Below are positions 8,204-30,215 of a stretch of 64,000 bases of DNA, piece after piece. The notes under the pieces were generated by a model. That model did not search any database and was not told the origin of the DNA. It saw only the letters and a list, made by a program, of their open reading frames with translations. The stretch covers positions 124,001 through 188,000 of the forward strand of contig NZ_JAOVZU010000004.1 of assembly GCF_025717005.1 (NCBI RefSeq). The letters run 5' to 3'. Source of the stretch: Actinotalea endophytica (GTDB taxonomy: Bacteria; Actinomycetota; Actinomycetes; Actinomycetales; Cellulomonadaceae). The stretch's first letter is position 1. Each line of letters opens with the position of its first letter. A program made the position numbers and the translations under genes.

Positions 8204-10306
8204 TCAGATCTCGCGGGCGACCTTCGCGCCGGCCGCGATCGCGTCGACGATCAGCTTGGGGTCCCCGGCGTCGCCGATCGTGTACACCTCGGGTGCCTTG
8301 CCGGCCAGCGCCTTCTGGATCGCGGTGTTCGGCTTGAGCGGCAGCGCCGTGACCACGGTGTCCGCCGCGAGCAGCTCCTTGCGGCCGTCCTTGTGCCGGA
8401 CCACCAGGCCGTCGTGCACGACCGACTCGTACTCGACCTCGGTGACGAACCGCACGCCGTGGTCCTTGAGCCAGTAGAGCAGGTACGGCTTCATGAAGAC
8501 CTCGAGCAGGCCCTCACCGATCTCGTCCTCGGAGGCGGTGTCCACGATCGTGATCCGCTTGCCCTGCTCGAGCAGGAACTCGGCGGTCTGGCAGCCGTGC
8601 AGACGGCCTCCCATGATCACGACGTCCTTGCCGATCACCAGGTTCTTCGCCACCGGCAGGCCGGACAGGGCACGCACCACGCCGGCGTCGGTGAACCGGA
8701 GCATGGTCTTGACCGTGCTCTGCAGCTTCTCCGCGGTGAGCACGTTCCGTCCGCCGATCCCGGGGATGTCCGGGACGTCGTGCAGACCGCCGGTCGCCAC
8801 CACGATGGCGTCGGGCTTGAGCTGCTCGGCGGTACGGGCACTCGCCGTGATCCCGGCGTGCACCTCGACTCCGGCCTTCTTCACCTGGGTGGTCAGGTAG
8901 CTCGCGGTCCCGAGCAGGTCCTCGCGCTTGCCCTTGACCACCGCGGCGACCGGCAGCGACCCGCCGAGCTTCGGCTGCTTCTCGTACAGGTGCACCTCGT
9001 GACCGCGCAGCGCCGCGACCCGCGCGGCCTCCATGCCGGCCGGACCGCCGCCGATCACCATGATCTTCTTGCGGACCGGGGCGGGGGTGATCGCGTACTC
9101 GCGCTCCTTGCCCAGCGACGCGTTGACCCGGCACTTGACCGGCTGGAAGTGCTCGCACGCGTCGAAGCAGGTCATGCACGAGTTGCAGACGTTGATGTCC
9201 TCGGTGCGACCCTCGAAGACCTTGCGCGGCAGCTCCGGGTCGGCGAACAGCCGGCGGTTCAGGCTGATGATGTCGATCTTGCCGTCCGCGATCGCCTTCT
9301 CGCCGATGTTCTGGTCGAGCCTGCCGACCGTGATCACCGGCACGTCGACGACCTTCTTGATCTCCGCGGCCATCGGGATGTTGGCGCCCGCACCCTTGCC
9401 CTTGGCGTCCACGTACGGGTTCACCGGGCCCTCGTGCCCCGGGTAGAAGTACACGTCCGGGAAGTGCAGGCTCTGCCGGTGGTCCACGTCGTCGACCCAT
9501 GTGTAGTACTCGGCGCGCACCTCGAGCGCATCGGCGCCGGCCTTGACCAGCTCCTGCGCGAAGAGCTTCGACTCCTCGATCGTGATGCCGTCGGCGAGGT
9601 CGACCTCGACCGCGTTGAACAGCGCGATGATCGGCCAGTCCGCGCCGTTGCGCCGCTTGATCTCCTTGATCACCGAGACGAACGGACGCATCCGGCTCTC
9701 CAGGGTCTGGGCGCCGTACTCGTCCTCGCGCTTGTTCCACGCCCGCGACATGAAGTTGTTCAGGAAGTGGTTGCAGGCGCCGTTGACCTCGGTGCCGTCC
9801 AGCCCGGCCCGCTTCATCCGCTCCGCGGCCTCGGCGAACATGTCGATGACGTCCTCGATCTCGGCGACGGTCGCCTCACGCGGCACCGAGAAGCCCGGCC
9901 GCGGCGACTGCTCGCGCGGGATCGACGAGGCGGAGATCCCGGGCGGCGCCGTGACGAACAGCGGCGTCATCGGGCCGAGGTGGAACAGCTGGTGGAACGC
10001 GAGCGCGCCGTGCTTCTGCACCACGCCGGCCCACTTCCGCCACCCCGGGATGTACTCGTCCGAGACCACCTTGAACCCGGGCATCGGGGCCTTGACGTCC
10101 CGGATCAGCGGTCCGGTCGCGGACGAGATCAGCCCTGCGCCGCCCTTCGCCAGGGCCTCGAAGTAGTCGAGGTACTGGTCGTTCATGAACCCGCCGGTGC
10201 TCGGGTCGTCCCAGAAGAAGCCGGTGCCGTTCTTCATGATCCGGTTCTTCGAGGTCACGGAGCCGATGTCGATCGGCTGGGCGAGGTGGGGGTAGCTCGG
10301 GGTCAT
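8204..10306 (-). CDS. Iron-sulfur flavoenzyme of the enoate reductase / 2,4-dienoyl-CoA reductase type
   Basis: Multidomain flavoprotein of 700 residues. Residues 1-365 form an old-yellow-enzyme TIM barrel for FMN. Next comes a [4Fe-4S] site with Cys374, Cys377, Cys380 and Cys392 (CNSCMTC...KCRVN), in the family spacing. Then follow FAD and NAD(P) domains, with VIGGGPAGMEA at 417-427 and VVIMGGRLHGCQTAE later; the end GDAGDPKLIVDAI closes the FAD domain. Length and order match 2-enoate reductases and dienoyl-CoA reductases, which reduce carbon-carbon double bonds next to a carbonyl; such enzymes are typical of anaerobic metabolism. The gene has its own promoter bearing a LysR-type box shared with other genes of this island. 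The substrate is unknown; an enone, cinnamate-like acid or chalcone is possible. Confidence 0.85.
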   Translation of the reverse strand: MTPSYPHLAQPIDIGSVTSKNRIMKNGTGFFWDDPSTGGFMNDQYLDYFEALAKGGAGLISSATGPLIRDVKAPMPGFKVVSDEYIPGWRKWAGVVQKHGALAFHQLFHLGPMTPLFVTAPPGISASSIPREQSPRPGFSVPREATVAEIEDVIDMFAEAAERMKRAGLDGTEVNGACNHFLNNFMSRAWNKREDEYGAQTLESRMRPFVSVIKEIKRRNGADWPIIALFNAVEVDLADGITIEESKLFAQELVKAGADALEVRAEYYTWVDDVDHRQSLHFPDVYFYPGHEGPVNPYVDAKGKGAGANIPMAAEIKKVVDVPVITVGRLDQNIGEKAIADGKIDIISLNRRLFADPELPRKVFEGRTEDINVCNSCMTCFDACEHFQPVKCRVNASLGKEREYAITPAPVRKKIMVIGGGPAGMEAARVAALRGHEVHLYEKQPKLGGSLPVAAVVKGKREDLLGTASYLTTQVKKAGVEVHAGITASARTAEQLKPDAIVVATGGLHDVPDIPGIGGRNVLTAEKLQSTVKTMLRFTDAGVVRALSGLPVAKNLVIGKDVVIMGGRLHGCQTAEFLLEQGKRITIVDTASEDEIGEGLLEVFMKPYLLYWLKDHGVRFVTEVEYESVVHDGLVVRHKDGRKELLAADTVVTALPLKPNTAIQKALAGKAPEVYTIGDAGDPKLIVDAIAAGAKVAREI

Positions 10307-10375
10307 CGATACCTCTGGTCAGGTCGTGATTGCGGCGACGTCGCCGGCCGCGGCGGTCACCCGTCCGGTGACTCG

Positions 10376-10419
10376 AGGCTAGGGCGACGGCGGTGGATGG
10401 GGAGTTGCCGATTCGGCAT
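10376..10419 (-). promoter_or_regulatory. Shared promoter, copy A, with LysR-type box (enoate reductase)
   Basis: On the minus strand: the palindrome TGCCGAATCGGCA (T-N11-A, 10406-10418), then ATCCAC, then TAGCCT (10376-10381), a good -10 element. Box centre to the first base of the -10 is 31 nt, which puts the box near -43. No TTGACA-like -35 is present, so transcription is probably activator-dependent. The same layout occurs at 22235-22278 and 30324-30367. Confidence 0.65.
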
Positions 10420-10439
10420 AGGTCGGTGCCCGGGCCCCG

Positions 10440-11480
10440 TCAGGGGCGCACCGCCCAGCGCACGGGTTGGCTGGTCGCGGCGAGCTCGGCGAGCGCCACG
10501 TCCGCCTCGGCCAGCGGGACGATCCGCTCGAGCATGCCGTCGGTGTGCAGCATGCCGCGCTCCATGAACCGGAACACGGTGCGGATCTCGTCGTCGGTGT
10601 AGGCGAAGGAGCCCTTGAGGTCGATCTCGAAGAGCTGCACCTGGATGCCGTTGATGGTGTCCAGCGGCTCGGGCGAGGTACCGACCACGATCACCTCACC
10701 CGCGGAGCGCACGAGCTGCATCGCGATCCCGACGGTCGCGGCGCTGCCGGCGCACTCGTAGACGATGTCCGCCCCGAGCCCGCCGTACAGGTCCTTGACG
10801 CGTGCCGCGAGGTCGTCCTCCTCGGTGGGGCTGAGCGCGAGGTCGGCGCCCATCGCGAGGGCGAGCTCACGCTTCTTCGCCGAGCGGTTCACCGCGGTGA
10901 TGTGCCCGGCGCCGGCGGCCCGGAGCAGCTGGACCATCGACAGCCCGATCGCCCCGGCACCGACCACGGCGACGTTCATCCCGGCCTGGAACGACGAGCG
11001 CCGCAGGCCGTGCCACGCGGTCGAGTAGATGTCGAAGAGCACCGCCTGCTCGTCGCTCACCGCGGCCGGGACCGGCACCAGCTGGCGCTGCGGGTAGCGG
11101 GCCAGCACGTACTCCGCGAACGCGCCCTGGGTGCCGGGACCGATGCCGGGCGTCCGCTCGAACGCGTTGACGCACAGCGTCGGCCGGCCGATCCGGCAGT
11201 AGTAGCAGCCCTCGGGACAGCTTCCGGGGGCGCCGATCGCGACGCGGTCCCCCACCGCGAAGCCGGCCACGCCTGCGCCGACCTGCTCGACGACCCCGAC
11301 CGACTCGTGGCCGAGCACCGTGCCGGGGAACAGGATCCCCTCCTGGCGGTAGGCGTGGACATCGGTGCCGCACATGCCGCACAGGCTGATCCGGACGAGC
11401 ACCTCGCCCGGGCCCGCGGTCGGGACCGGCCGGTCGACCAGGGCGACCGCTCCGACGCCGTCGTACTGCAGTGACTTCAT
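10440..11480 (-). CDS. Zinc-dependent alcohol dehydrogenase (MDR family)
   Basis: Medium-chain dehydrogenase of 346 residues that oxidises an alcohol or reduces a ketone with NAD(P). The ATG at 11480 overlaps the stop of the upstream MFS gene (ATGA), so translation is coupled. The catalytic zinc site shows Cys37 in CGMCGTD and His58-Glu59 in GHES. The structural zinc loop has four cysteines, 88, 92, 95 and 103, with one extra residue between the first two compared with the common spacing. The Rossmann motif AVVGAGAIGLSMVQL follows. It is the last gene of the nine-gene butyrate kinase to dehydrogenase unit. In this context it may oxidise a hydroxy acid or cyclic alcohol to the keto form needed by BKACE (inference). 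Confidence 0.88.
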   Translation of the reverse strand: MKSLQYDGVGAVALVDRPVPTAGPGEVLVRISLCGMCGTDVHAYRQEGILFPGTVLGHESVGVVEQVGAGVAGFAVGDRVAIGAPGSCPEGCYYCRIGRPTLCVNAFERTPGIGPGTQGAFAEYVLARYPQRQLVPVPAAVSDEQAVLFDIYSTAWHGLRRSSFQAGMNVAVVGAGAIGLSMVQLLRAAGAGHITAVNRSAKKRELALAMGADLALSPTEEDDLAARVKDLYGGLGADIVYECAGSAATVGIAMQLVRSAGEVIVVGTSPEPLDTINGIQVQLFEIDLKGSFAYTDDEIRTVFRFMERGMLHTDGMLERIVPLAEADVALAELAATSQPVRWAVRP

Positions 11481-12733
11481 GCCGGTTCTCCTTCGATCGG
11501 GACGGGAGCGGCCGCGCCGCGCCGCAGCAGTGCGGCGAGGCCGAGACCGGCGGCGCTCATCACGAGCGCCACTGCGAACGCGACGGTCCAGGTGCCGTCG
11601 AGGCTCTGGGCGGCGATCACCCGGGGGCCGACGAAGGCCGCGACCGAGTACGCGACGAACATGATCGCGTAGTTCGTGCCCTGGTACCGCGGGCCGAACG
11701 TGGCCATGGTCAGCGCGGGGAACACGCCCAGCGCGCCGCCGAAGCACGAGCCGAGCCCGAGCACGCCGATCGCGAACCCGAGCGGAGAGTGGACCGTGAG
11801 CAGCACCGCGAACGAGACCGCGCCGACGGCCGCCATGAGCATGACGGCGGCCGGTGCGCCGCGCCGGTCGGCCACCACGCCCCACGCCGGGCCGCCGAGC
11901 GCATTGCACGCCGAGAACGCCGCGACGAACAGCGCGGACGCGGCCGCGGACAGGCCGTACCAGGTGCTCTGCCCGATCCCGGCGAGCTGCGAGAGCAGCA
12001 TCAGCGGGCCGAACAGCACCGTGGCGAAGGCCGCGAAGATCGGGACGAACCGCGGTGAGCGGACCATCCGGTGCCACGGCACCCCGTCCGTGGCGCCGCT
12101 GTCCCCGAGGTCGGGCGACGCCGGTCCGACCGGCGCCGACCGCACGAACAGCGCGGCCGCGCACGCGACGACCCCGTACACCACACCCATCCGCACGAAC
12201 GCGGCCGAGACCCCCGCGGAGGCGATGACCGCGCTGGCGACCGGCGCCCCGATCACCGTGCCGAGGCCGACCCCGGCGGTGATCAGGCCGGCCGCGAGAC
12301 CCCGGCGGTCCGGGAAGAGCCGGACGGTGTTGCTCACCGCGGTGCTGTAGCAGAAGCCCAGGCCGAAGGCCGTGACCACGCCGTACCACCAGACCAGCTG
12401 ACCGGGCGTGGAGGCGACGCCGCTCATCGCGAAACCGAGGCCGAACAGCACCGCGCCGACGACCATCAGCGGGCGGGCCCAGCCGCGGTCGAGCAGGACC
12501 CCGCCGACGACCATCGGGATCGGCGCGAGCGCGCCGTTGACCGAGAACGCGAGCGTGACCTGGGCGGCCGACCAGCCGTGGGCAGCCTGCAGCGGACCGG
12601 CGAACACCGAGAACGAGTAGATGACACCGGTGCAGACCACGATGAGCACCGAGGCCGCGAGCACCCGCCACCGGTGCGGCGCGCCGACGAACGCCCCCGC
12701 CGTCTGGGCCGGGGCCTGGGGAGCGGCGCTCAC
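11477..12733 (-). CDS. MFS transporter, oxalate/formate-antiporter-like
   Basis: Membrane carrier of 418 residues with about 12 transmembrane segments. The GTG start at 12733 overlaps the TGA of the CoA-transferase beta gene (GTGA). The N-terminal stretch around [23 protein letters not shown] and the helix pair [20 protein letters not shown]...DRGWARPLM follow the pattern of the OFA branch (oxalate/formate antiporter type) of the major facilitator superfamily, many of which move small carboxylates. Position between the CoA-transferase and the dehydrogenase suggests uptake of the acid that the operon degrades, or exchange with a fermentation acid. The substrate itself is not visible in the sequence. 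Confidence 0.82.
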
Positions 12734-13422
12734 AGCATCGATCCGAGCGGCTCGGCGACGGTGAGCTCGGCCGCGGTGGCGGCGCATACCTCGTCGACCG
12801 TGAACACCGGGTTGATCTCGGTGAGCACGAGCCCGTGCGGGGTGACCTCGATGACACCCATCTCGGTGACGATCAGGTCCACGCAGGCGACCGCGGTCAG
12901 CGGCAGCGTGCACGCCGGCAGGATCTTCGGCGCACCCTTCTGGGTGTGCTCCATCGCGACGATCACGTGCTTGGCGCCGACCACGAGGTCCATCGCCCCG
13001 CCCATCCCGGGCACCATCTTCCCGGGGATGATCCAGTTCGCGAGGTTGCCGGCCTGGTCGACCTGGAGCGCGCCGAGCACGGTCGCGTCCATGTGCCCGC
13101 CCCGGATCAGCCCGAACGACGTGGCCGAGTCGATGAACGCGCCGCCCACCTGGCACGAGGCCGGCTGACCGCCGGCGTTCACCACGTACGGCGACTCCTC
13201 CCCCGCGCCGCAGCCACCGGCCAGCACGATGCCGTTCTCGGCCTCGAGGACCACGCGCACGCCGTCCGGCAGGTAGTCGGGGATCATCGTCGGCAGACCG
13301 ATCCCGAGGTTGACGAAGTCGCCGTCCTTGAGCTCGCGCGCGACGCGGCGGGCGATGATCTCCCTGATCGTCCCCTTGTCCAGGGATGCCTTGTCGAGCA
13401 CGGGTGCACGGTCAGTCGCCAC
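12730..13422 (-). CDS. 3-oxoacid CoA-transferase, subunit B
   Basis: Beta subunit (230 residues) of a family I CoA-transferase, which moves CoA from an acyl-CoA to a 3-oxo acid such as acetoacetate. The catalytic glutamate is Glu62 in EAENGIV, the family's E-N-G motif. [12 protein letters not shown] at 39-50 and [15 protein letters not shown] are also typical. Start is GTG at 13422 with GGAGGGG upstream; it overlaps the end of the alpha gene by 11 bp, as usual for a heteromeric pair. With the BKACE and thiolase genes it completes the step acetoacetate to acetoacetyl-CoA. Exact donor and acceptor specificity (acetoacetate or 3-oxoadipate) cannot be read from the sequence. Confidence 0.9.
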
Positions 13423-14107
13423 CGGGAACCCCTCCTTCCACGATGTAGTCCACGAGGACGCCGGGGGTGACCACGTCCTCCGGCGGGATGGCCCCGAGCG
13501 GGACCACGTGGTCCGCCTCGGCGATCACCACGTCGGCCGCCGTGGCCATCACGACGTTGAAGTTGCGGGTCGTGCCGCGGTACCAGACGTTGCCGAGCAC
13601 GTCGATCTTGTAGCCGCTGATCAGCGCGACGTCGGCGCGCAGCGGCTTCTCCAGCAGGAACGTGCGCCCGTCGATCTCGACCGTCGGCTTGCCGTCGGCC
13701 ACCGGCGTACCCAGCCCGGTCGGGGTCAGCACGCCACCCAGGCCCGCACCCCCGGCACGGATCCGCTCGGCCAGCGTGCCCTGGGGGCACAGCTCGACCT
13801 CGAGCTCCCCGGCGTTCATCTGCGTCGCGACCGCCGGGTTGAGCCCGACGTGCGACGCGTACAGCTTGCGCAGCCGGTGCTGCTCGACGAGCTTGGCGAC
13901 CCCGTAGCCGGGCCGCGACGTGTCGGTCGCGATCAGCGTGAGGTCGGTGACGCCCTTGGCGCACAACGCCTCGACGACCTGGTGCGGGTTCCCGCACCCC
14001 ATGAAGCCGCCGATCATCACGGTCATCCCGGACTCGACGTGGGCCACCGCCTCCGCCACCGAGACCAGCTTGTGGCTCGTGACGGGTGCGTCGGTCGTGG
14101 TGGTCAT
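13412..14107 (-). CDS. 3-oxoacid CoA-transferase, subunit A
   Basis: Alpha subunit, 231 residues, of the CoA-transferase whose beta subunit follows. Conserved pieces are [25 protein letters not shown] near the N-terminus, the [30 protein letters not shown] glycine-rich loop and [11 protein letters not shown] in the C-terminal half. ATG at 14107 has GAGGAGCC just upstream. It sits 9 nt beyond the thiolase stop, in the same transcript. Together the two subunits activate a short 3-oxo acid, here most likely the acetoacetate released by the BKACE enzyme, by taking CoA from another acyl-CoA. Confidence 0.9.
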
Positions 14108-14116: not shown

Positions 14117-15418
<1,302 letters not shown>

Positions 15419-15432
15419 CTCGGTTCTCCTGG

Positions 15433-16437
15433 TCATTCGGGTGATCCGGCGTCGCCGGACGGGACGGTGGCCGGCACGAGGGCCGGTTCGGAAGCCGGGT
15501 CAGCGGCCGGAACTGGGGTCGGATCGGTGGCCGACGCGCCGAGCAGGCTGCACAGCAGCAGGGAGTGGAGCTTCTCGGCGCTCGAGGCGCTGCGGGACGT
15601 GAGCGCGACCGGCACGCGGGTGCCGACCAGGCAGCCGGCCAGGATGTTGCGCTCGTCCGCGTTCCAGATCTTGCTCATCACGTTGCCGGTGACCATCTGC
15701 GGCACCAGCAGCATGTCGACGTCTCCGGCGTACGGGCTGTCGTACCCCTTGATCGCGGCGGACTCGCGGCTCGTGGCCAGGTCGTACGAGATCGGCCCGA
15801 CGACGACGCAGTCGCCCAGCTCGCCGCGCTCGCTCATCTCCTGCAGCTCGCGGGCCTCGACGGTCTCCGGCAGCTTCGGGTTGACCACCTCGATCGAGGC
15901 GAGGGCCGCGACCACGGGCGTGTCGATGCCGAGCCGGCGCAGCGCCTCGGTCGTGATCCGCACGATCTTGGCCTTCGCCTCGAGGTCCGGATAGGGCACG
16001 ACCGCCGCGTCGCTCATCGCGAGGAGCTTCGGGTAGCCCGCGATCTGCATCAGGCCGAGGTGGGTGACGAACCCGGCGTCGTTGATCCCGGTCTCCTTGT
16101 CCAGGACCGGGCGCAGCAGGTCGCGGGTCTCGATGCCGCCCTTGAGGATGAAGTCGACCGCACCCTCGCGGACCAGCCGCACCGCGACCGCAGCCGGGTT
16201 CTCCTCCGGCGCGCAGTCGACCAGCTCGGCGCGCTGCTCGTCGAGCCCGAGCTCGGCGAGCAGGGCCCGGGTCCGGTCCGCCGGACCGATCAGGACGGGT
16301 CGCACGAAGCCCTGGTCCGCGGCCTGGTAGACCGCCTCGAGCGCGTGCGCGTTCGCCGCGCCGGCCACGGCGCAGCGGGCGACCAGCCCGCTGCGCCGCG
16401 CCCGCTCGGCGAGCTCGGTGTAGCTCGCGTACCTCAT
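15433..16437 (-). CDS. ptb: Phosphate butyryltransferase-like acyltransferase
   Basis: Soluble enzyme, 334 residues, of the phosphate acetyl/butyryltransferase family; it swaps CoA for phosphate on a short acyl-CoA, giving an acyl phosphate. ATG at 16437 overlaps the preceding stop (ATGA). Typical stretches are VRPVLIGPADRTRALL near residue 47, VDFILKGGIETRDLLRPVL, the NDAGFVTHLGLMQ region and YAGDVDMLLVPQMVTGN near the C-terminus. About 35 residues of Pro/Ala/Ser-rich tail extend past the usual family end. With the butyrate kinase gene four steps upstream in the same unit it would yield one ATP per acyl-CoA. Butyryl-CoA is the textbook substrate; propionyl-, isobutyryl- or other acyl-CoAs are possible. 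Confidence 0.85.
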   Translation of the reverse strand: MRYASYTELAERARRSGLVARCAVAGAANAHALEAVYQAADQGFVRPVLIGPADRTRALLAELGLDEQRAELVDCAPEENPAAVAVRLVREGAVDFILKGGIETRDLLRPVLDKETGINDAGFVTHLGLMQIAGYPKLLAMSDAAVVPYPDLEAKAKIVRITTEALRRLGIDTPVVAALASIEVVNPKLPETVEARELQEMSERGELGDCVVVGPISYDLATSRESAAIKGYDSPYAGDVDMLLVPQMVTGNVMSKIWNADERNILAGCLVGTRVPVALTSRSASSAEKLHSLLLCSLLGASATDPTPVPAADPASEPALVPATVPSGDAGSPE

Positions 16438-21000: not shown

Positions 21001-21993
21001 TCACTTGATCTCGTCCTCTTCCTGGCCGCCGTTCACGCGCGGGCGGACGACCTTGCCCTTCTTCTCGGCGGCTTTGACCAGCTCGGCCTCCTCGTGGGCC
21101 CACTCCCAGAAGCTCACCTCGTGCGGGGAGTGCTCGGTGGCGGTGTTCCACATCTCCGTCGCGAACGCGTTGCGGACCTCGTTCGCGATGTCCTCCTTCC
21201 ACGGCTTGCGCAGCTGCTGCACCGTGAGCCGGCGGGTCTGCCGGGTCCCGGCGCGCATGATCAGCTCGGCGATCTCGTGGGCCCGGGCGTAGGCCGCCTC
21301 GGTGTCGTCGCAGATCTCGTTGACCATGCCCAGCTCGAGCGCCTTGCGCGCCGTGATGATCTCGCCGGTGAGCTCGGCGTAGGCGAAGCGCTTGCGCCCC
21401 ATGAGCTCGCGCCACGCGATCTGGATGCCGTCGCCGGGCACCATGTTGACCCGGAAGTGCATCTCCGTGGTCCACGCGTCCTCGGTGCACAGCGTGATGT
21501 CGGAGAAGAGCACCAGGTCGGTGTGGAAGGCCGCGCCGTTCCACACGCCGATCGTCGGGACCTCGACGTCGAAGACCTGGCCCTCGATGTCGTTCGTGCC
21601 GTCGTAGTACTGGTACTCGTACAGCCGCCAGGCGTGCTCGGGGGCCGAGTCGAACTCGTGCGCGTAGCCCATCGAGCCGTCGTCCTGCGGCCGCCCGATG
21701 CCCTTGAACAGGTCCTTGCCGGAGCCGCCGAGGATGATGACCTCGTTCTCGGGGTCACGTCCGGCCCAGTCGAAGAAGTAGTGCAGGCCCTGGTGCGCCT
21801 GGGCGTTCCACACCAGCGAGTCGCCGTTGGTGTGCAGCCGCGCCTCGAGGATGCCGTTCTCCCGCTTCATGATGAGGAAGTCCTTGCATGCCTCCTGGTA
21901 CTGCTCGAAGGTCACGTGGGGGATCGTCCCCAGCTCCTTGTGCGGGAGCTCCTTGCGCTTGTCGTGGTCCGACTCGTAGTTCCCTCTGATCAT
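21001..21993 (-). CDS. Crotonase-superfamily hydrolase resembling 6-oxocamphor hydrolase
   Basis: Protein of 330 residues in the enoyl-CoA hydratase/isomerase fold. ATG at 21993 follows AAGGAAGGAAAG. It matches 6-oxocamphor hydrolase better than ordinary hydratases: HTNGDSLVW at 54-62 (the hydrolase has SLVW at the same place), EVPTIGVWNG, and VNMVPGDGIQIAW. 6-Oxocamphor hydrolase uses His122, His145 and Asp154 to break a carbon-carbon bond in a cyclic beta-diketone without CoA. The equivalents here are His157, His179 and Asp188, with spacings 22 and 9 against 23 and 9. About 60 extra residues follow the core. The gene is divergent from an SDR dehydrogenase. A ring-opening diketone hydrolase is therefore likely, though a CoA-dependent hydratase is not excluded. 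Confidence 0.7.
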   Translation of the reverse strand: MIRGNYESDHDKRKELPHKELGTIPHVTFEQYQEACKDFLIMKRENGILEARLHTNGDSLVWNAQAHQGLHYFFDWAGRDPENEVIILGGSGKDLFKGIGRPQDDGSMGYAHEFDSAPEHAWRLYEYQYYDGTNDIEGQVFDVEVPTIGVWNGAAFHTDLVLFSDITLCTEDAWTTEMHFRVNMVPGDGIQIAWRELMGRKRFAYAELTGEIITARKALELGMVNEICDDTEAAYARAHEIAELIMRAGTRQTRRLTVQQLRKPWKEDIANEVRNAFATEMWNTATEHSPHEVSFWEWAHEEAELVKAAEKKGKVVRPRVNGGQEEDEIK

Positions 21994-22318: not shown

Positions 22319-23080
22319 ATGGGCGTGCTTCAGGACAAGGTTGCGGTGGTCACGGGGGCCAACTCCGGGATCGGGCGCGCGACGGCCGCACTGTTCGTCG
22401 CGGAGGGCGCGACCGTGGTCGTGTGCGGACGGCGCACCACGGCGAACGAGCAGGTCGTTCAGGAGCTGCGGGTGGCCGGCGGTCGCGCCCTCGCCGTGCA
22501 GGCCGACGTCTCGGCCGCGACGGACTGCCGCCGGGTGGTCGACGCCACGGTCGAGGCGTTCGGACGCATCGACGTCCTGGTCAACAACGCCGGGATCGGC
22601 GACCGGCACATGCCGATCGACGAGTGCTCGGAGGACTGGTTCGACACCGTCGTCAGGACCGACCAGTACTCCGTGTACTACATGACCAAGTACGTGCTGG
22701 AGCACATGGTCGGTGCGGGTTCCGGTTCGATCGTCAACGTCTCGTCGATCGGAGCCGGCGGGGTCGCGGGCATCGCCTACAGCGCCGCGAAGGCGGCGGT
22801 GAACGCGATGACCAAGAACGTCGCGATCCGGTACGCGGCCACCGGGATCCGCTGCAACGCGGTCGCTCCCGGACCGACCCCGACACCGCTGAACGGGCCA
22901 GAGGCGGCGGCCGCCTTCCACGCAGAGTTCGCCGAGATGTGCGCCAGGCACATCGACGTGACGCTGCCCACCGCGTCGGCACAGGACCAGGCGCAGGCGA
23001 TCTGCTGGTTCGCCTCGGACGCGTCACGGTCGGTCACGGGACAGGTCCTGTACGTCGACCACGGCACGAGCCTGTACTGA
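22319..23080 (+). CDS. Short-chain dehydrogenase/reductase (SDR)
   Basis: Classical SDR of 253 residues; NAD(P)-dependent alcohol/ketone conversion in the cytoplasm. Cofactor motif TGANSGIG at 12-19, NNAG at 89-92, and catalytic Ser142/143, Tyr154 and Lys158 in AYSAAK. The ATG at 22319 follows GAGAGGACGGGAACCCACC. It is transcribed away from the diketone-hydrolase-like gene and carries the shared LysR-box promoter, so it should act in the same pathway, either making a cyclic diketone from a hydroxyketone or reducing a polyhydroxy-aromatic ring. Phloroglucinol reductases of anaerobes are SDR proteins, but the sequence alone does not identify this one as such. Confidence 0.88.
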   Translation: MGVLQDKVAVVTGANSGIGRATAALFVAEGATVVVCGRRTTANEQVVQELRVAGGRALAVQADVSAATDCRRVVDATVEAFGRIDVLVNNAGIGDRHMPIDECSEDWFDTVVRTDQYSVYYMTKYVLEHMVGAGSGSIVNVSSIGAGGVAGIAYSAAKAAVNAMTKNVAIRYAATGIRCNAVAPGPTPTPLNGPEAAAAFHAEFAEMCARHIDVTLPTASAQDQAQAICWFASDASRSVTGQVLYVDHGTSLY

Positions 23081-23143: not shown

Positions 23144-24295
23144 TCAGACCAGCTCGAAGGTCCCGGCCGCCCCCATGCCGCCGCCGATGCACATGGTGAC
23201 CAGCGCGCGCCGACCACCGGTCTCGGCGAGCTCCGCGAGCGCCTTGCAGGTGAGCACCGCGCCGGTCGCGCCCAGGGGGTGGCCCATGGCCAGGCCGCCG
23301 CCGTTGCGGTTCACCCGGGCCCAGTCGATGCCGAGCTCACGCAGCACCGCGATGGACTGCGACGCGAAGGCCTCGTTCAGCTCGATCACGTCGATGTCGT
23401 CGAGGCCCAGGCCGGTACGAGCCAGCACCTTCGGCACGGCGGCGATCGGTCCGATGCCCATCACGTCGGCGTCGACGCCGGCGACCGCGAAGCCGACGAC
23501 CCGCGCGATCGGGGTCGCGCCGATCTCCTCGGCCTTGGCCCGCGACATGAGCACTGCGAAGGCGGCTCCGTCGCTGCGCTGCGAGGAGGTGCCCGCGGTG
23601 ACCGAGCCGTCCTCGGCGAACACCGGCTTGAGCCCGGCCAGACCCTCCATCGAGGTGCTCGGCCGGATCCCCTCGTCGATCTCGAACGTCGTGGTCGAGC
23701 CGTCCTCGGCGACCGCGGTGACCGGGACGATCTGGCCGGCGAACCGGCCCGCCTCGCGTGCAGCGGTGGCCCGCGCGTGGGAGTCGACGGCCATCGCGTC
23801 CATCTCCTCGCGGGTGATCCCCCAGCGCCGGGCCACGTTCTCGGCGGTGATGCCCATCGGGATGTAGGCGTCGGTCTCGGCCTCGAGCACCGGGTCCTTG
23901 AACCGCTCGTCGTCGCTGAGCACCGGGGAGGACATGTGCTCGACCCCACCGGCCACCACGACGTCCGCCATCCCGGCGTCGATCGCGGCCGACGCCGCAG
24001 CGATCGTCTGCAGGCCGGAGGCGCAGAACCGGGTCACGGTCTGGCCGCTCACCGAGCTCGGCAGGCCCGCGCGCAGCACGATGTTGCGGGCTGCGTTGAG
24101 GCCCATGGTGGTCTCGGGCAGGGCGCACCCGACGATCACGTCGTCGATGTCGCCCGGGTCGAGCTGCGGCACGCGGGCGAGCACGCCGCGCAGCACCTCG
24201 GCGCCGAACGCGACCGGGTGGGTGCGCACCAGGCTGCCCTTGCCGGCCTTGGCGATGGCGGATCGGCCGTAGGCGACGATCACGGCGTCGGTCAT
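23144..24295 (-). CDS. Thiolase (acetyl-CoA C-acyltransferase)
   Basis: Second thiolase of the island, 383 residues, of the degradative 3-ketoacyl-CoA thiolase type. Active-site residues: Cys91 in RFCASGLQT, the His of AMGHPLGATGA and the Cys of MCIGGGMG. ELNEAFAS before the His is also usual. ATG at 24295 has AGGACTCCTGAC in front. It has none of the insertion seen in the first thiolase. It forms its own transcript, with a hairpin on each side and a LysR-type box 48-60 bp upstream. It may thiolyse a longer 3-ketoacyl-CoA than acetoacetyl-CoA, or back up the first enzyme; the sequence does not settle the chain length. Confidence 0.92.
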   Translation of the reverse strand: MTDAVIVAYGRSAIAKAGKGSLVRTHPVAFGAEVLRGVLARVPQLDPGDIDDVIVGCALPETTMGLNAARNIVLRAGLPSSVSGQTVTRFCASGLQTIAAASAAIDAGMADVVVAGGVEHMSSPVLSDDERFKDPVLEAETDAYIPMGITAENVARRWGITREEMDAMAVDSHARATAAREAGRFAGQIVPVTAVAEDGSTTTFEIDEGIRPSTSMEGLAGLKPVFAEDGSVTAGTSSQRSDGAAFAVLMSRAKAEEIGATPIARVVGFAVAGVDADVMGIGPIAAVPKVLARTGLGLDDIDVIELNEAFASQSIAVLRELGIDWARVNRNGGGLAMGHPLGATGAVLTCKALAELAETGGRRALVTMCIGGGMGAAGTFELV

Positions 24296-24342
24296 GTCAG
24301 GAGTCCTTCTCTCGGGCGGCGATGCCGCGTACTGGTATCCAG

Positions 24343-24449: not shown

Positions 24450-25808
24450 TCAGATGCTCTCGACCGTTGCGGTCTCGGCCTCCGCGGTGACCAGGCTGGC
24501 GTGGTCGACCTTGGCCTGCTTGAGGAACAGCGCCGGGATGATGCCGAGTGCGCACACCACCGACATGATGACGATCGACAGCGTGAAGTGACCGGTCGCG
24601 CCGAGCGCGTGGGCACCGGCCCACACACCCGCCGAACCGCCGAAGATCCCCAGTCCCATCGCGTAGCCACCGAGCTTGCCGGCGCTCTGCGGGTAGGACT
24701 TGGCCAGGTAGGCGAGGGCGTTCGGGTTGATCCAGGCGAAGAAGAAGCCTGCGATGCAGACCACGATGCCCATCACCACGGCGTTGCTCGTGGCGAACGG
24801 CGCGAGCATGGCCAGGCCGAAGATCGCGCCCATCGAGAAGCCCAGGATGATGCCCGGGCGCACCCGGCCGCGCATCAGCTTCTCGGTGAAGGCACCGGCC
24901 GCGAAGGCACCGGCGAAGTTGAACGCCTGCGCGATCGCGAGCATCGTGCCACCCGCCGCGAACCCGACGCCGATGTCGCCGTTGGTCAGGTAGGTCGGGG
25001 ACAGGTCGTTGAACGCCTGGTACACCCACGACAGGATGAAGACGCACGCGATGGCAGCCCAGGTCACCGGGTGCCGCAGCGCGGCGCGGAGCTGGTGCTG
25101 CACCGCCGACCGCTCGGCCGGCGTCATGTCCTCGGCGCGAACCTCGGCCTGCTTCGGACCGAACGCCACGATCAAGGCCATGACCAGCGCGACGGCCGCG
25201 ATCGGCCACAGCGAGAACAGCGCGTCCTGGAACGAACCAGCGTGTGCCTCGAGCACCCCACCCATCGTGAGCTGGCCGATGCCGACGCCCGCCGCCATCG
25301 CCGCACCCTGGGTGCCCGTCACGATGGCGCGCTCGTTCACCGGGAATCTCCGGGCCGCGACCGACGCCGACGACGCCATGATCGGTCCCGTGCCCAGGCC
25401 CTGGATGACCCGGAGCAGGACCACACCTCCGACGGTCTGGCCGACGGACGGCATCAGGATCCAGCCGATCGCGATCATCGAGATGCCGAAGAAGTAGACG
25501 GCCAGGAAGCCGAACTTGTCGATGAACCAGCCGCCACCGAGCGCGCCGACGGCGACCGCGAGGTTGAAGTAGAGCATCGCGACGTTGGCGATCTCACCGA
25601 TGTTCAGCGCACCGTCGGGCAGCGGCGTGTTGCCCGAGAGGATGTCGCCGGCGATCGAGGGGTCCGGCAGGAAGCTCGCGAAGATCCCCGGGATCATCGG
25701 GGCGGGGGCGATCAGCGCCACGGCCGTGGTGCCCGTGACGATGAAGAGCGTGAGGAGCACGAACCACCGGAACGGTGAGTACGTGATCTCCTTGACTGAC
25801 GTGGACAT
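24450..25808 (-). CDS. MFS transporter
   Basis: Carrier of 452 residues with about 12 membrane segments in two halves and a charged central loop (GPKQAEVRAEDMTPAERSA). The N-terminal half shows GGWFIDKFGFLAVYFFG, the family's loop 2-3 pattern, and GLGTGPIMASSASVAARRFP in the fifth-segment region. ATG at 25808 follows AAAGGGGATG. It lies 129 bp after the flavoprotein gene on the same strand and is probably the last gene of the electron-transfer operon. Pathway context suggests uptake of the aromatic or alicyclic substrate; the sequence does not show which. It is not a close copy of the other MFS carrier in this island. Confidence 0.85.
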   Translation of the reverse strand: MSTSVKEITYSPFRWFVLLTLFIVTGTTAVALIAPAPMIPGIFASFLPDPSIAGDILSGNTPLPDGALNIGEIANVAMLYFNLAVAVGALGGGWFIDKFGFLAVYFFGISMIAIGWILMPSVGQTVGGVVLLRVIQGLGTGPIMASSASVAARRFPVNERAIVTGTQGAAMAAGVGIGQLTMGGVLEAHAGSFQDALFSLWPIAAVALVMALIVAFGPKQAEVRAEDMTPAERSAVQHQLRAALRHPVTWAAIACVFILSWVYQAFNDLSPTYLTNGDIGVGFAAGGTMLAIAQAFNFAGAFAAGAFTEKLMRGRVRPGIILGFSMGAIFGLAMLAPFATSNAVVMGIVVCIAGFFFAWINPNALAYLAKSYPQSAGKLGGYAMGLGIFGGSAGVWAGAHALGATGHFTLSIVIMSVVCALGIIPALFLKQAKVDHASLVTAEAETATVESI

Positions 25809-25924: not shown

Positions 25925-25939
25925 GACGGCTCAGCCGTC
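25925..25939 (-). terminator. Small hairpin overlapping the flavoprotein stop codon
   Basis: GACGGC-TCA-GCCGTC, a 6-bp stem that overlaps the end of the flavoprotein gene. It is short and could at most reduce read-through into the MFS gene. Confidence 0.3.
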
Positions 25940-27443
25940 AGAAGCTCTCGATGTAGGCGTTCGCGTTGTAGCCGGCCATGCGCCCGGAGTTGATCGCGAA
26001 GCCCATGGTGTTGCCGGGCAGGTAGAAGCAGTACGAGTCGCCGAAGATGCCGCAGGCGTCGGTGCCCGAGGCGTACAGGCCCTCGATCGGCAGCCCGGCC
26101 TCGTCCAGCACGTTCATCTCGTCGTTCACCGCGACGCCGCCGAGGCTGCCGTAGCCGGCCGGGAAGTGCCGGGCGACGTAGTACGTCGTGCCGGTGACCG
26201 GGCGCAGGTACTTGTACGGCTTGAAGAACTGGTCGTCGGTGGTGGCGCAGAGCTGGTTGTACTCCTCGACCGTGGCGACCAGGGACTCGTAGTCGATGCC
26301 GGTGACCTCGGCGACCTCCTTGAGCGACTCGCACACCCAGAAGTTCTTGGTGTGCTTCTGCTCGTCGTTGTGCAGGTCGGACAGGCCGGACGCCTCGACA
26401 CCCGCGCCGCTGACGTAGGCCTCGACCTCCTTGTCCCACTTCTCGACCGTCTTGATGTTGTGGTGGAAGGTCACGTAGTCCAGGCCCTTGGCCCGGTAGT
26501 CGTCGATGATCGAGTCGGTGACGATCGTGAACGCCACGCGCTCGCGCTGACGCGCGATCGAGTTTCCGGTGTAGACGGTGTTGTTCATGATCTCTTCGTC
26601 GATGAACCGCTTGCCGTCGAGGTTGACCATGAGGTTCGGCTGACGCATGGTCTCCGAGATCGTCTTGTAGACGTCGGTGACACCGGGCGTGGTGTAGGTC
26701 AGCTCCATGGTCGCCTTGGTGTGACCGCCACCGGCCTCCCACAGCATCGACAGGCCGTCGCCGTCCACGCCCGGGATCCGGAACGAGTGCAGGTCCTTGC
26801 CCCACTCGAAGCCCAGGTAGTCGTGGATCATCTGCGGGCTGTTGCCGAACCCGCCGGTCGCGACGATCACCGCGTTGCACTCGGCGGTCTTCGCGACGCC
26901 GTCCTCGCCGACCAGCTCGACGGCCGAGACCGCGCCGTCGTCCATGACGATCTTGGTGGCCTTGGTGCGGTACAGGATCTGCACGCCGAGGTCCTCGGCC
27001 TGCTCGGTGAGTGCCTTGTACAGGTTCGACGCGGCGCGCTCGGCCGGCTTGTCCGAGCCCGCCGTCTTGACCACGTGCCAGGTCTGCTTGGAGGTCTCGA
27101 AGTACTTGTAGGCACCGAGGAACTCGACACCCATCTTCTCCAGCCAGGTGATCGTGTCGGCCGACTGCGCGATGTACTTGCGCACCAGCCGGGCGTCCAC
27201 GCTCCAGTGGGTGTACTCCATGAGGAACTTGAAGGCCGCCTCCTGGGTCAGGTCGACCATCTGTGCCTTCTGCTGCTTGGACTCGACGGCGAAGAAGCCC
27301 ATGCCCATGTTGGCGGCGCCGCCGGTCGTGCTGCCCTTCTCGAGCACGATCACGCTGGCGCCCTTCTCGGCGGCCGCAACCGCCGCGGTGATGCCGGAGG
27401 CGCCGCCGCCGATGATGATGACGTCAGCTTCCATGTCGCTCAT
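25938..27443 (-). CDS. FAD-binding dehydrogenase/reductase, fumarate-reductase-like flavoprotein
   Basis: Flavoprotein of 501 residues in the succinate dehydrogenase / fumarate reductase / 3-ketosteroid dehydrogenase group (FAD_binding_2). The FAD-binding motif is DVIIIGGGASGITAA at 7-21, with EKGSTTGGAANMGMGFFAV just after. The capping domain and the C-terminal return to the FAD domain (GLYASGTDACGIFGDSY, NTMGFAINSGRMAG) are present. No signal peptide and no heme motif, so it is cytoplasmic. ATG at 27443 has GAAGAGG upstream. It directly follows two iron-sulfur proteins that look like its electron donors or acceptors. Introduction or removal of a carbon-carbon double bond next to a carbonyl is the likely chemistry; the substrate is not fumarate with any certainty. 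Confidence 0.85.
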   Translation of the reverse strand: MSDMEADVIIIGGGASGITAAVAAAEKGASVIVLEKGSTTGGAANMGMGFFAVESKQQKAQMVDLTQEAAFKFLMEYTHWSVDARLVRKYIAQSADTITWLEKMGVEFLGAYKYFETSKQTWHVVKTAGSDKPAERAASNLYKALTEQAEDLGVQILYRTKATKIVMDDGAVSAVELVGEDGVAKTAECNAVIVATGGFGNSPQMIHDYLGFEWGKDLHSFRIPGVDGDGLSMLWEAGGGHTKATMELTYTTPGVTDVYKTISETMRQPNLMVNLDGKRFIDEEIMNNTVYTGNSIARQRERVAFTIVTDSIIDDYRAKGLDYVTFHHNIKTVEKWDKEVEAYVSGAGVEASGLSDLHNDEQKHTKNFWVCESLKEVAEVTGIDYESLVATVEEYNQLCATTDDQFFKPYKYLRPVTGTTYYVARHFPAGYGSLGGVAVNDEMNVLDEAGLPIEGLYASGTDACGIFGDSYCFYLPGNTMGFAINSGRMAGYNANAYIESF

Positions 27444-27480: not shown

Positions 27481-28140
27481 TCAGCTGGGACGTGGCCGAC
27501 GACGGCGCATGCCGCCACCGGCCGGGACGGGTGCCGCGGCGAACGACCCGACCGGGATCGGCTCGTCGGGCACCTTGGGCTTGATCGGACCGGCCTTGGC
27601 GATCGCCGAGACCGGGCAGACGCTCAGGCACGCACCGCAGCGCGTGCACACGTCGTTGTCGACCACGTGGACGAGGTCGGGGCCGCCCGCGATCGCGTCG
27701 ACCGGGCACACCGGCCGGCACTCCTCGCAGCCGGTGCAGGTGGTCGGGTCGACGTGCACGGTGAAGCTCATCGCGCAGGTCAGGCTCGTGCACCGGCTGC
27801 GCCGCACGTGCCGGTCCCACTCCTCGGCGTGGTCACGCAGCGAGTCGAGCACCGAGCGCGCGGCGAGGCCGGCCATCGCGCACGGCACCAGGTCGGCCAT
27901 CAGCCCGCACAGCTCGTCGACCAGGGCCAGGTCGGCGCTCGAGCCCTTTCCGACCGTGATGTCGGTCAGGATGGTGGCGACCTGGCGGGTGCCCTCGCGG
28001 CAGTACACCTCGCGCCCGCAGGTCGCGCCGGCGGCCTGCCACATGAGCGTGGTCGCCATGGCGACCGGGCACGCCACGCCGGCGGCCACCGCCTCGACGT
28101 CGATCGGGGTCAGGTTCGCGGCGGTCGTCTCGCACCTCAT
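27481..28140 (-). CDS. NuoF C-terminal-like domain fused to a two-cluster ferredoxin
   Basis: Electron-transfer protein, 219 residues. Residues 35-110 resemble the iron-sulfur C-terminal domain of NADH dehydrogenase subunit F (CREGTRQVATILTDITVGKG, then LVPCAMAGLAARSVL), but without the flavin and NADH domains. The classic CGxCxPC motif is CGREVYC here, so the middle cysteine is missing and only Cys41, Cys47 and Cys87 remain. Residues 130-180 are a 2x[4Fe-4S] ferredoxin with Cys135, 138, 141, 145 and Cys165, 168, 171, 175, each followed by P. ATG at 28140 overlaps the stop of the upstream gene (ATGA). It probably passes electrons between the larger partner and the downstream flavoprotein. Confidence 0.82.
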   Translation of the reverse strand: MRCETTAANLTPIDVEAVAAGVACPVAMATTLMWQAAGATCGREVYCREGTRQVATILTDITVGKGSSADLALVDELCGLMADLVPCAMAGLAARSVLDSLRDHAEEWDRHVRRSRCTSLTCAMSFTVHVDPTTCTGCEECRPVCPVDAIAGGPDLVHVVDNDVCTRCGACLSVCPVSAIAKAGPIKPKVPDEPIPVGSFAAAPVPAGGGMRRRRPRPS

Positions 28141-30215
28141 GCCCGGACCCCCTGCTGCGCGCCGGACTGGTAGACCGCGTCGGTCCAGTACTTCACGGTG
28201 CTCAGGTCGGGCCGCAGCTCGCAGTGCAGGCACCGGGACGTCTCCGTGGCGACTGCCTCGGCGGTCCGGCAGTCGGTCCGGGTGAGCTGGGAGAAGTTCG
28301 GGATCGTGCCGATCGCCGGGTCGTGCTCGGGACGCTCGTAGTACGTGTCCTCGATGTCGCCGTCTCCGCCGAGGTACCGGTCGAGGCTCGACGCCGCGGC
28401 ACGCGCCAGGGCGATCGCGTTGATGACGGTCGAGGTGCCGGTGACCGAGTCGCCGGCGGCGAAGACGCCCTCGACCGAGGTCCTGGCGTCGGCCCCGGTG
28501 ACCACCAGGTTGTTCCGGCCGAGCTCCACGCCGAACTCCGGCGTGAGGTCCGACTGCTGCCCGGTGGCGACGATCACCGTGTCGGCGACCAGCTCACGCG
28601 TGGTCCCCTCGACCAGGTCGAGCTGCAGCCCGTCGGCGGTGAACGCGAAGCTCCGCACGTCGGTCACGTCGAGACCGGTCACCCGCTGGTCGGCCACCGT
28701 CGGGGTCAGGGTGACGGATGCGTGCACCGTGATGCCCTCGGCGAGCGCCTCGCGGACCTCCTCGGGGTCGGCGAGCATCTTGTCGAACGGCTCGAGGCAC
28801 AGCACGTGCACGTCGGTCGCGCCGAACCTCTTGGCCGAGCGCGCGCAGTCGAACGCGACGTTGCCGCCGCCGAGCACGGCGATCGTGGCACCCAGCCGGG
28901 GCCGCTCGCCGTCGTTCCAGCGACGGCACGCGTCCACGCCGTCGACGACGTTGCTCAGCGCGGGGTCGTACCCGGGCGGGCGCTTGCCGGCCTGCGCTCC
29001 GGTGGCGACCAGGACCGCGTCGAACTGCTCGCGCAGCGGGGCGAGGTCGGTGACCCGCACGTTCGTCTCGATCGTGAACGGCGCGATCTCCTGCAGGGTC
29101 GCGATCTCGGAGTCGATGACCTCCTGCGGCAGCCGGTACCGCGGGATGCCCCAGGTCATCATCCCGCCGGGCCGCGAGCGCCGTTCCAGCACCGTGACCT
29201 CGTGACCCTTGCGGGTCAGGTAGTACGCGGCGGTCAGGCCGGCCGGTCCGCCGCCGACGACGGCGACCCGCTTGCCCGTCGGCTCGGCGACCCAGGTCCG
29301 CTCGCGCCAGGTCTGCTCGGCGTCGTTCTCGACCGCGAACCGCTTGACCGCACGGATCGAGATCGGCGCGTCCATCGTCCCGCGCTTGCACTCGGACTCG
29401 CAGTTGTGGCTGCACACGTAGCCGAGGCTGAGCGGGAAGGTCAGCTTCTCGCGGAACACCGAGACCGACTCGGCGTAGCGCCCCTCCCCCGCGAGCTGCA
29501 GGTACAGCGGGATGTCGGTGTGGGCCGGGCACCCGTTCCGGCACGGCACCAGAGCCTGCGCCCGCGGGACGTCCTCGCGGAACAGCCCGGGCGGGTCCAT
29601 CAGGGTCCCGGTCGGGCACACCTCGACGCACGCGCTGCAGAACCGGCAGTCGGTCTGGTCGTGCGGCAGGTCGTCGACGGTGCCGACGTACGCCTCGCCG
29701 TCGCGGTGGCGGATCTCCAGGATGCTCACGCCGCGCAGGTCGCCGCACGCGCGGATGCACCGCGTGCACTGGATGCAGCGGAACATCTCCTTGGAGATGA
29801 TCGAGTTCGACGCCCCGATCCGGGCGGTCTCCTTCTCGATCTCGCGCAGCCGCGAGTGCGCGACGCCGGTGTACTGCATGAGCGCCTGGAGCTCGCAGTT
29901 CAGGTACGCGCGGCAGGACGTGCAGTCCTTCGGGTGCGGCGCGAGCATCAGCTCGAGCGCCACGTTGCGGATGTGCTCGACCCGCTCGGTCTTGGTGCGC
30001 ACGACCATGCCGTCGGCGACGGTCACCTCACAGGCCTGGACCGGTCGGTCGTGACCGTCGACCTCGACCGTGCACATCCGGCAGCCGCCCTCGGCCGGCA
30101 GATCCGGGTGCGAGCACAGGTGCGGCACGTAGATCCCCGCGGCGAGGCACGCCGCAAGAAGGTCCTGGCCGGGGAGCGCCTCCACGGCGACCCCGTCGAC
30201 CTCGATCCGCACCAT
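28137..30215 (-). CDS. NuoG N-terminal-like / GltD-like iron-sulfur flavoprotein fusion
   Basis: Fusion protein of 692 residues. In order: a [2Fe-2S] domain (Cys34, Cys45, Cys48, Cys62); a His-Cys [4Fe-4S] motif (His94, Cys98, Cys101, Cys107) as in NuoG and iron hydrogenases; a ferredoxin pair (Cys147, 150, 153, 157 and Cys190, 193, 196, 200); a GltD-type cysteine region (CRNGCPAHTDIP near 223 and CSHNCESECKRG near 260); then FAD and NAD(P) domains (VAVVGGGPAGLTAAYYL near 303 and VLGGGNVAFDCA near 433), ending with CLHCE. Such proteins feed NAD(P)H electrons into ferredoxin-like carriers. The ATG at 30215 follows GGAGGTGCGCCGACGG. It is the first gene of this operon, under shared promoter copy B. 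Confidence 0.85.
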   Translation of the reverse strand: MVRIEVDGVAVEALPGQDLLAACLAAGIYVPHLCSHPDLPAEGGCRMCTVEVDGHDRPVQACEVTVADGMVVRTKTERVEHIRNVALELMLAPHPKDCTSCRAYLNCELQALMQYTGVAHSRLREIEKETARIGASNSIISKEMFRCIQCTRCIRACGDLRGVSILEIRHRDGEAYVGTVDDLPHDQTDCRFCSACVEVCPTGTLMDPPGLFREDVPRAQALVPCRNGCPAHTDIPLYLQLAGEGRYAESVSVFREKLTFPLSLGYVCSHNCESECKRGTMDAPISIRAVKRFAVENDAEQTWRERTWVAEPTGKRVAVVGGGPAGLTAAYYLTRKGHEVTVLERRSRPGGMMTWGIPRYRLPQEVIDSEIATLQEIAPFTIETNVRVTDLAPLREQFDAVLVATGAQAGKRPPGYDPALSNVVDGVDACRRWNDGERPRLGATIAVLGGGNVAFDCARSAKRFGATDVHVLCLEPFDKMLADPEEVREALAEGITVHASVTLTPTVADQRVTGLDVTDVRSFAFTADGLQLDLVEGTTRELVADTVIVATGQQSDLTPEFGVELGRNNLVVTGADARTSVEGVFAAGDSVTGTSTVINAIALARAAASSLDRYLGGDGDIEDTYYERPEHDPAIGTIPNFSQLTRTDCRTAEAVATETSRCLHCELRPDLSTVKYWTDAVYQSGAQQGVRA

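Follow-up and report, generated by a model that had tools for sequence, protein, structure and literature searches.

The window analysed here is a 64 kb stretch (NZ_JAOVZU010000004.1, 124001-188000) of the 4.25 Mb genome of Actinotalea endophytica. Within it, 18 genes spanning positions 8204-30215 form an island that includes a crotonase of the 6-oxocamphor hydrolase (OCH) type (21001-21993, minus strand) and a BKACE (17423-18256, minus strand). Gene families were assigned by Pfam and NCBIfam scans of the open reading frames (ORFs) of the window, and the gene starts are start codons that we selected. A first-pass annotation had listed the genes of this island as a possible actinomycete pathway for cyclic 1,3-diketones similar to anaerobic phloroglucinol breakdown. 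Every gene on its list is present; a LysR regulator and a gene with a NuoF C-terminal domain and ferredoxin motifs are additions to it.

Neighbouring genes of the island overlap by 4-11 bases in several cases, which fits an operon organisation. In a second genome of the same genus (G017), 14 of the 18 genes were found in the same order with 59-90% identity: OYE, CoA-transferase subunits B and A, thiolase 1, Ptb, the phosphotriesterase-family protein, BKACE, Buk, LysR, the crotonase, MFS carrier 2, the flavoprotein, the NuoF C-terminal protein and NuoG-GltD. The SDR, thiolase 2, the alcohol dehydrogenase and MFS carrier 1 are not in place there; a relative of thiolase 2 (76%) and an MFS carrier (40%) are encoded outside the conserved block, some 6-7 kb past the OYE gene. 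Adjoining the OYE gene of G017 are a CoA-transferase, a 3-hydroxyacyl-CoA dehydrogenase (3HCDH) and an HpaB-family protein. The last (L008:7430-9193) has counterparts with 58-67% identity at five Spirochaete crotonase loci (L032, L034, L037, L040 and L041) and one with 35% at L033; it bears a Cys-rich motif and HFHRHSYTGC, and by these Cys/His motifs we liken it to 4-hydroxybutyryl-CoA dehydratase.

A scan of genome contigs with an alignment of four crotonases as the query yielded 48 loci. Forty of these (L014-L053) have a crotonase with 71-91% identity within the matched region, which is incomplete for L053; they stand for fewer genomes, SZUA-414 and Acerihabitans contributing two each. Partner genes were counted by ORF clustering at the 40 loci, where contigs are often broken off, so that the counts are lower bounds: besides the 40 crotonases there are 32 BKACEs, 32 thiolases, 29 CoA-transferase A and 27 CoA-transferase B subunits, and members of the LysR (24), MFS (21), SDR (16, one with only 31% identity) and flavoprotein (13) families. 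Crotonase and BKACE are the constant pair of the island. This co-occurrence at 32 of 40 loci, together with the 14 genes kept in order in G017, argues against a chance grouping. Both thiolase queries match at many of the loci, and some Gram-negative loci gain an outer-membrane Phenol_MetA_deg channel or an OprB porin.

The hosts of the crotonase are Actinomycetota, Proteobacteria, Spirochaetes and metagenome-assembled genomes (MAGs) of Chloroflexi and Deltaproteobacteria. Among them are Cellulomonas, Demequina, Propionibacteriaceae, Brenneria, Acerihabitans, Sodalis, Kosakonia, Klebsiella indica, Tolumonas, Pasteurellaceae including Lonepinella koalarum, and several Alphaproteobacteria. With 40 loci across several phyla, the idea of a pathway peculiar to actinomycetes was not borne out. 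In a 52-row tree, a branch of length 3.43 (support 100/100) unites the 43 close crotonases. The window crotonase groups with three other Actinomycetota (100/99) to the exclusion of G017, although that genome belongs to the same genus, which fits horizontal transfer. Among its closer relatives the crotonase gene is rare: besides the own genome, two of 58 relatives match the crotonase at E <= 1e-20 (84% and 39% identity), and one of 395 other genomes in a sample of the phylum does so at E <= 1e-35 (35%, with an internal stop codon). A protein search of 72,556 plasmid records gave no match to the crotonase, and a DNA search of E. coli genomes gave none to the crotonase-BKACE stretch of Kosakonia. 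The other eight loci of the contig scan (L054-L061, 27-42% identity) lie outside the main clade, as do the OCH-like crotonases of G050 and of a paralogue in the own genome (G000:C17:291060-291833; L006/L012). This second OCH-like crotonase is 35% identical to that of the window and adjoins a LysR gene whose product is 54% identical to the window LysR; apart from this LysR, no further match to an island gene was found in the 20 kb stretch around it that was searched. Among the proteins scanned at L010 (eight) and L012 (two) there was no core gene except the L012 crotonase itself.

Several lines of evidence place the window crotonase with OCH. In a phmmer search of PDB sequences, OCH (106 bits) and the beta-diketone hydrolase of Anabaena (105 bits) were the best matches by a wide margin; the next match had 51 bits, and no enoyl-CoA hydratase exceeded this. 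With an AlphaFold model (mean pLDDT 83; 26 sequences) as the predicted structure, the first 12 Foldseek matches in the PDB were all OCH or the Anabaena enzyme, with target TM-scores of 0.87-0.90. W62, H67, H157, H179 and D188 of the window protein align with W40, H45, H122, H145 and D154 of OCH, which we take to be its active-site residues. Across an alignment of close homologues, 42 or 43 of the 43 rows keep each of these residues, and the deviating rows have gaps there. Hence the window crotonase has the fold and the five residues in common with OCH (1O8U, 1SZO) and the Anabaena enzyme (2J5G, 2J5S), and a retro-Claisen hydrolysis is the expected reaction of a member of this type. Its identity to OCH is about 34% in the aligned region, and it is 73 residues longer. 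Unlike OCH and the Anabaena enzyme, it sits in a catabolic operon with a BKACE, and its family is spread across several phyla.

As the nearest characterised enzyme acts on 6-oxocamphor, the island could serve terpenoid degradation, the crotonase opening a bicyclic or monoterpene-derived diketone as in camphor breakdown. The modest identity to OCH speaks against this, no terpene oxygenase family was seen among the island ORFs scanned, and to our knowledge neither a BKACE nor a CoA-transferase is part of the camphor route. Moreover, many hosts of the crotonase are fermentative or anaerobic. We therefore regard a terpenoid substrate as very unlikely.

The reference for comparison is the anaerobic phloroglucinol pathway of Clostridium scatologenes, with PGR, the Mn-dependent DPGC, TfD and TAL, a BKACE in which Trp replaces Glu14 of Kce (PMC10470551). 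In the available text of that paper the word "crotonase" appears solely within a reference title, and in the open-access PMC literature we found no description of a crotonase-type phloroglucinol or BKACE pathway. A cluster of Hungatella UBA7603, reached by way of a 55%-identical BKACE, served for comparison. By Pfam it contains 3HCDH, SDR, Cyclase, BKACE, DAPG_hydrolase, FMN reductase, FAD_binding_2 and NuoG-GltD-type proteins, and it also has a thiolase and a CoA-transferase. Its genes were assigned by eye and then confirmed by Pfam, the scripted motif searches for cyclase and 3HCDH having tagged nothing. Gene order, families and the Trp of its BKACE suggest that it encodes PGR, DPGC, TfD and TAL. 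With the Hungatella DPGC-like protein (Pfam Cyclase) as the query, which recovered itself as the positive control, no match at E <= 1e-10 was found in the genome of A. endophytica. Of 31 crotonase genomes, three have an orthologue (71-85% identity), two have a weak partial match and 26 have none at the same threshold. When the crotonase was searched for in the nine DPGC genomes of the Hungatella order, eight gave no match at E <= 1e-15, and Hungatella itself gave two homologues with 38-39% identity. The absence of a DPGC match from the own genome and the complete set of OCH-type residues support ring opening by a crotonase rather than a Mn-dependent cyclohydrolase, one of the two options that the first-pass annotation had named, and we propose the crotonase as the replacement for that enzyme.

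The BKACE also links the island to phloroglucinol breakdown. The window protein aligns with Kce at the metal-site and catalytic His, Glu and Asp residues. In a midpoint-rooted tree, 32 crotonase-linked BKACEs (99/89) are sister to 12 DPGC-linked ones (99/95), and Kce, a single row on a long branch, lies outside both clades together with divergent BKACEs from L033 and L053 (100/99). Thus the connection to phloroglucinol breakdown that had been drawn through the BKACE is upheld: the sister clade of the crotonase-linked BKACEs is that of the DPGC-linked ones and not the Kce of lysine fermentation. At the specificity position, that of Kce Glu14 and TAL Trp16, the window protein has Val17. Among 34 rows from crotonase loci, 30 have Val, two Met and two Gly; 11 of 12 rows from DPGC loci have Trp and one has Phe; Kce has Glu.

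These data also bear on a route like lysine fermentation with a BKACE acting on 3-keto-5-aminohexanoate, a specificity that would tell against the cyclic-diketone proposal. The best NCBIfam model for the window BKACE is indeed Lys_ferment_KCE, yet the score of 298.7 bits is below the cut-off of 382. The Glu that binds the 5-amino group in Kce is Val here, the tree puts the protein with the DPGC-linked BKACEs in a clade separate from Kce, and neither a lysine aminomutase nor an ammonia-lyase family was seen among the island ORFs scanned. Hence such a route is scarcely credible. The NCBIfam model for 3,5-dioxohexanoate BKACE, NF053538, scored above its cut-off in two of the 31 crotonase genomes. 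It was dropped as a marker of canonical clusters: the neighbourhood scan covered ten proteins, one being the BKACE itself, and the nine neighbours of the two genes included no cyclase, SDR or 3HCDH.

Another common element is the electron-transfer module. It consists of a FAD_binding_2 flavoprotein similar to fumarate reductase and vinylphenol reductase (25938-27443, frame open to 27518), a protein with the NuoF C-terminal domain and two [4Fe-4S] ferredoxin motifs (27481 to about 28140) and a fusion of a NuoG N-terminal part with GltD (28137-30215), a probable NAD(P)H-linked electron input; all three genes are on the minus strand, the NuoF C-terminal gene lying between the other two. The flavoprotein and NuoG-GltD are 42% and 43% identical to those of the Hungatella cluster, and the flavoprotein is 41-44% identical to copies beside canonical-type phloroglucinol clusters. 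Nine of 392 genomes of the Hungatella order match the DPGC-like protein at E <= 1e-60, and at six of the nine loci the flavoprotein gene is a neighbour, along with at least a portion of NuoG-GltD. The window flavoprotein has a match at E <= 1e-90 in 14 of the 392 genomes, namely in seven of the nine with DPGC versus seven of the 383 others (Fisher p 4e-10, both draws being taken as the same 392 genomes). No flavoprotein was seen at three DPGC loci in crotonase genomes (L083-L085). At L098 and L099, also from the Hungatella order, the FAD_binding_2/NuoF-C/NuoG-GltD set stands as a module by itself. Apparently it is a general flavoprotein reductase module.

The likeness to anaerobic phloroglucinol breakdown claimed at the outset can therefore be specified. 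The island resembles the C. scatologenes pathway in its chemical logic, in the sister clade of its BKACE, and in having CoA-transferase, thiolase and acyl kinase genes of the canonical cluster type, an MFS carrier and a regulator; with the Hungatella-type clusters it has the flavoprotein and NuoG-GltD as neighbours in common. It differs from the canonical pathway in that an OCH-type crotonase takes the place of the Mn-dependent, cyclase-family DPGC, Val that of the BKACE Trp, no TfD-like gene was seen in the island and the SDR appears not to be orthologous. Since the own genome has no DPGC match and the BKACE has Val and not Trp, the island, judged from its sequences, is not the canonical phloroglucinol pathway itself; it looks like a widely spread sister pathway.

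On balance, and with restrained confidence, we read the island as a reductive-hydrolytic pathway for a ring of the phloroglucinol type, in which the crotonase would open the ring; this substrate is inferred. The target ring would be oxygenated and able to adopt a 1,3-diketone form. A flavoenzyme or the SDR may reduce this ring or a conjugated precursor. The crotonase, whose residues and predicted fold match OCH, would then hydrolyse the cyclic 1,3-diketone in a retro-Claisen reaction, and a dehydrogenase would, where required, turn the resulting 3-oxo or 3-hydroxy-5-oxo acid into a beta-keto acid. From this acid and acetyl-CoA the BKACE would form acetoacetate and an acyl-CoA; the reaction is that of the family, and the sister clade suggests the substrate. 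CoA-transferase and thiolases would yield acetyl-CoA. In Actinomycetota, Ptb and Buk may gain ATP from a share of the acyl-CoA, and lactonised intermediates may be opened by the lactonase relative described below. The FAD_binding_2 protein with NuoF and NuoG-GltD probably forms an ene reductase of its own, driven by NAD(P)H.

A number of observations weigh against this reading. The SDR is only 31% identical to that of the canonical cluster. In general family scans of the island ORFs no member of the 3HCDH family, to which TfD would belong, was seen, the rest of the own genome being unsearched in this respect; in G017 such a gene is near OYE. No SDR (45% or more), flavoprotein or OYE match was found in the available stretch of 11 of the 40 loci (L015, L017, L018, L024-L027, L042, L048, L051 and L052), and many of the flavoprotein and OYE matches at the other loci are just 24-34% identical. 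As five of the nine DPGC proteins of the Hungatella order are 98-100% identical, the flavoprotein association comprises few independent cases, and the module is also found where neither ring opener is present. Two crotonase loci (L033 and L053) carry a different type of BKACE, and at the specificity position Trp or Phe at DPGC loci contrasts with Val, Met or Gly at crotonase loci. Finally, crotonase and a DPGC orthologue occur together in Brenneria izbisi, Spirochaetales SZUA-414 and Pleomorphomonas; this points to a different compound as the substrate of the crotonase route.

Several of these points would be explained if the same type of pathway acted on a substituted relative, i.e. an alkyl-, acyl- or carboxy-phloroglucinol or a resorcinol-type ring. 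The BKACE would then release a longer acyl-CoA, which would account for the second thiolase and for Ptb and Buk. The coexistence with DPGC in three of 31 genomes and the change from Trp to Val, which should widen the pocket, leave room for a substituted phloroglucinol or another 1,3-dioxygenated ring, as does the presence of two crotonase subclades within the same Spirochaetes; that both thiolase queries match at many loci fits as well. In L037, crotonases of different subclades (6339-7331 and 10001-10996) lie 3 kb apart, and in SZUA-414 the two subclades are represented by one gene each on a single contig (L034 and L041). On the other hand, 28 of the 31 crotonase genomes are without a DPGC orthologue (two of them with weak partial matches), and in these genomes the crotonase could act on the phloroglucinol route itself. 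We put forward a substituted ring tentatively, as a possible but less probable substrate.

The loci in which no reductase was seen allow a further variant. The crotonase might act directly on the keto tautomer of a phloroglucinol-type ring and deliver a 3,5-dioxo acid to the BKACE, which would amount to a redox-free hydrolytic dearomatisation. Two enterobacterial loci, L026 and L027, have crotonase, BKACE, CoA-transferase and thiolases and no SDR, OYE or flavoprotein match in the available stretch; they would be the minimal form of such a pathway. Against this, 29 of the 40 loci have a match to SDR (45% or more), flavoprotein or OYE, and the Acerihabitans genome of L026 has a reductase at L016. 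Thus we consider direct hydrolysis unlikely, and the reductive-hydrolytic pathway is kept as the working interpretation.

The island holds several candidates for the reductase. The SDR (22319-23080, plus strand) is present as listed before. In whole-genome searches, 17 of the 31 crotonase genomes including the own one match it at E <= 1e-50 (48% or more), and 14, G017 among them, do not. Forty PDB sequences match it at E <= 1e-30, none of them named phloroglucinol reductase. The OYE/enoate-reductase-type flavoenzyme (8204-10306, minus strand; 85% in G017) is a relative of BaiCD, bilirubin reductase and mycofactocin-associated OYE, none of these models being above its cut-off. An equol-type isoflavone cluster with OYE, SDR and flavoprotein was discarded as an explanation: G017 lacks the SDR, and the constant pair is that of BKACE and crotonase.

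The phosphotriesterase-family protein (16434-17426, minus strand) had been named together with the crotonase as a possible ring opener. Over nearly its full length it matches chains of the DR0930 type and similar ones in the PDB with 277-298 bits, the others among the 60 matches listed having 141 bits or less; the DR0930-type chains, its nearest solved structures, are presumably lactonases. Its gene was seen as part of the operon at actinomycete loci only (window, G017, L015 and L051). Its lactonase likeness and this restricted presence argue against a general ring opener. A catabolism of lactones (2-pyrones) is conceivable, in which this protein would open pyrones like triacetic acid lactone to 3,5-dioxo acids and the crotonase would be secondary. 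The place of its gene between BKACE and Ptb, with 4-base overlaps, and the DR0930-type matches are in line with this. Given that the constant element is the crotonase and the phosphotriesterase-family gene was seen only at the four actinomycete loci, we judge it highly improbable.

The remaining genes of the island, on the minus strand unless noted otherwise, are those of the CoA-transferase subunits B (12730-13422, TIGR02428 above cut-off) and A (13412-14107, TIGR02429 above cut-off), thiolase 1 (14117-15436), thiolase 2 (23144-24295), a phosphate butyryltransferase-type Ptb (15433-16437), a butyrate kinase-type Buk (18304-19428, TIGR02707 above cut-off), the LysR-family regulator (19671-20576, plus strand) and MFS carrier 2 (24450-25808). 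The CoA-transferase is of the 3-oxoacid type. Ptb and Buk occur together at the window, G017, L015 and L051, and at L040 with 36-37% identity. Two genes appear to be accessory: a zinc-binding alcohol dehydrogenase (10440-11480), which is similar to Tdh and IolM, below all listed cut-offs and has only a 54-residue match in G017, and MFS carrier 1 (11477-12733). ARAGORN calls a tRNA-Lys at 24208-24298 (plus strand) over the start of the thiolase 2 gene, probably a false positive.

If the proposed pathway is real, two unrelated bacterial enzymes open phloroglucinol-type rings, and bacteria have a second way to open the rings of phloroglucinol-like plant phenolics without oxygen. A search by co-location with the cyclohydrolase, as described in the available text of PMC10470551, would overlook the second group, which would include Cellulomonas-related bacteria, Demequina, Brenneria, Tolumonas, the koala bacterium Lonepinella and several Spirochaete MAGs. 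The pathway would also provide a named, assayable gene set for the breakdown of phenolic carbon in bacteria in which one would not have expected this ability. For Lonepinella koalarum, the available text of PMC7583611 states that the literature suggests a breakdown of some plant defence compounds and that no tannase gene was found.

The surroundings of the island offer an attractive but hypothetical link to the use of flavonoid glycosides. Directly beside it, upstream at 3975-8077 of the window, are an alpha-L-rhamnosidase (GH106) and a GFO/IDH/MocA oxidoreductase, which could feed it with rhamnosylated phenolics. The phloretin hydrolase family PF18089 was found in five of the 31 crotonase genomes and in two of 59 relatives, the own genome being included in both counts; the two relatives are the own genome and G050. 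Comparing five of 31 with one of 58 gives a Fisher p of 0.018, with overlapping groups (G017 is in both) and lineages that are not independent, so that the enrichment is only suggestive as a marker of flavonoids. The own copy of this DAPG_hydrolase/phloretin-hydrolase family lies on the same contig 1.7 kb past the window end (L068:3659-4621). It is a weak member (84 bits, cut-off 22.7) with 27% identity to the Hungatella protein, and its scanned neighbours are a solute-binding protein, a helix-turn-helix regulator and PEP carboxykinase.

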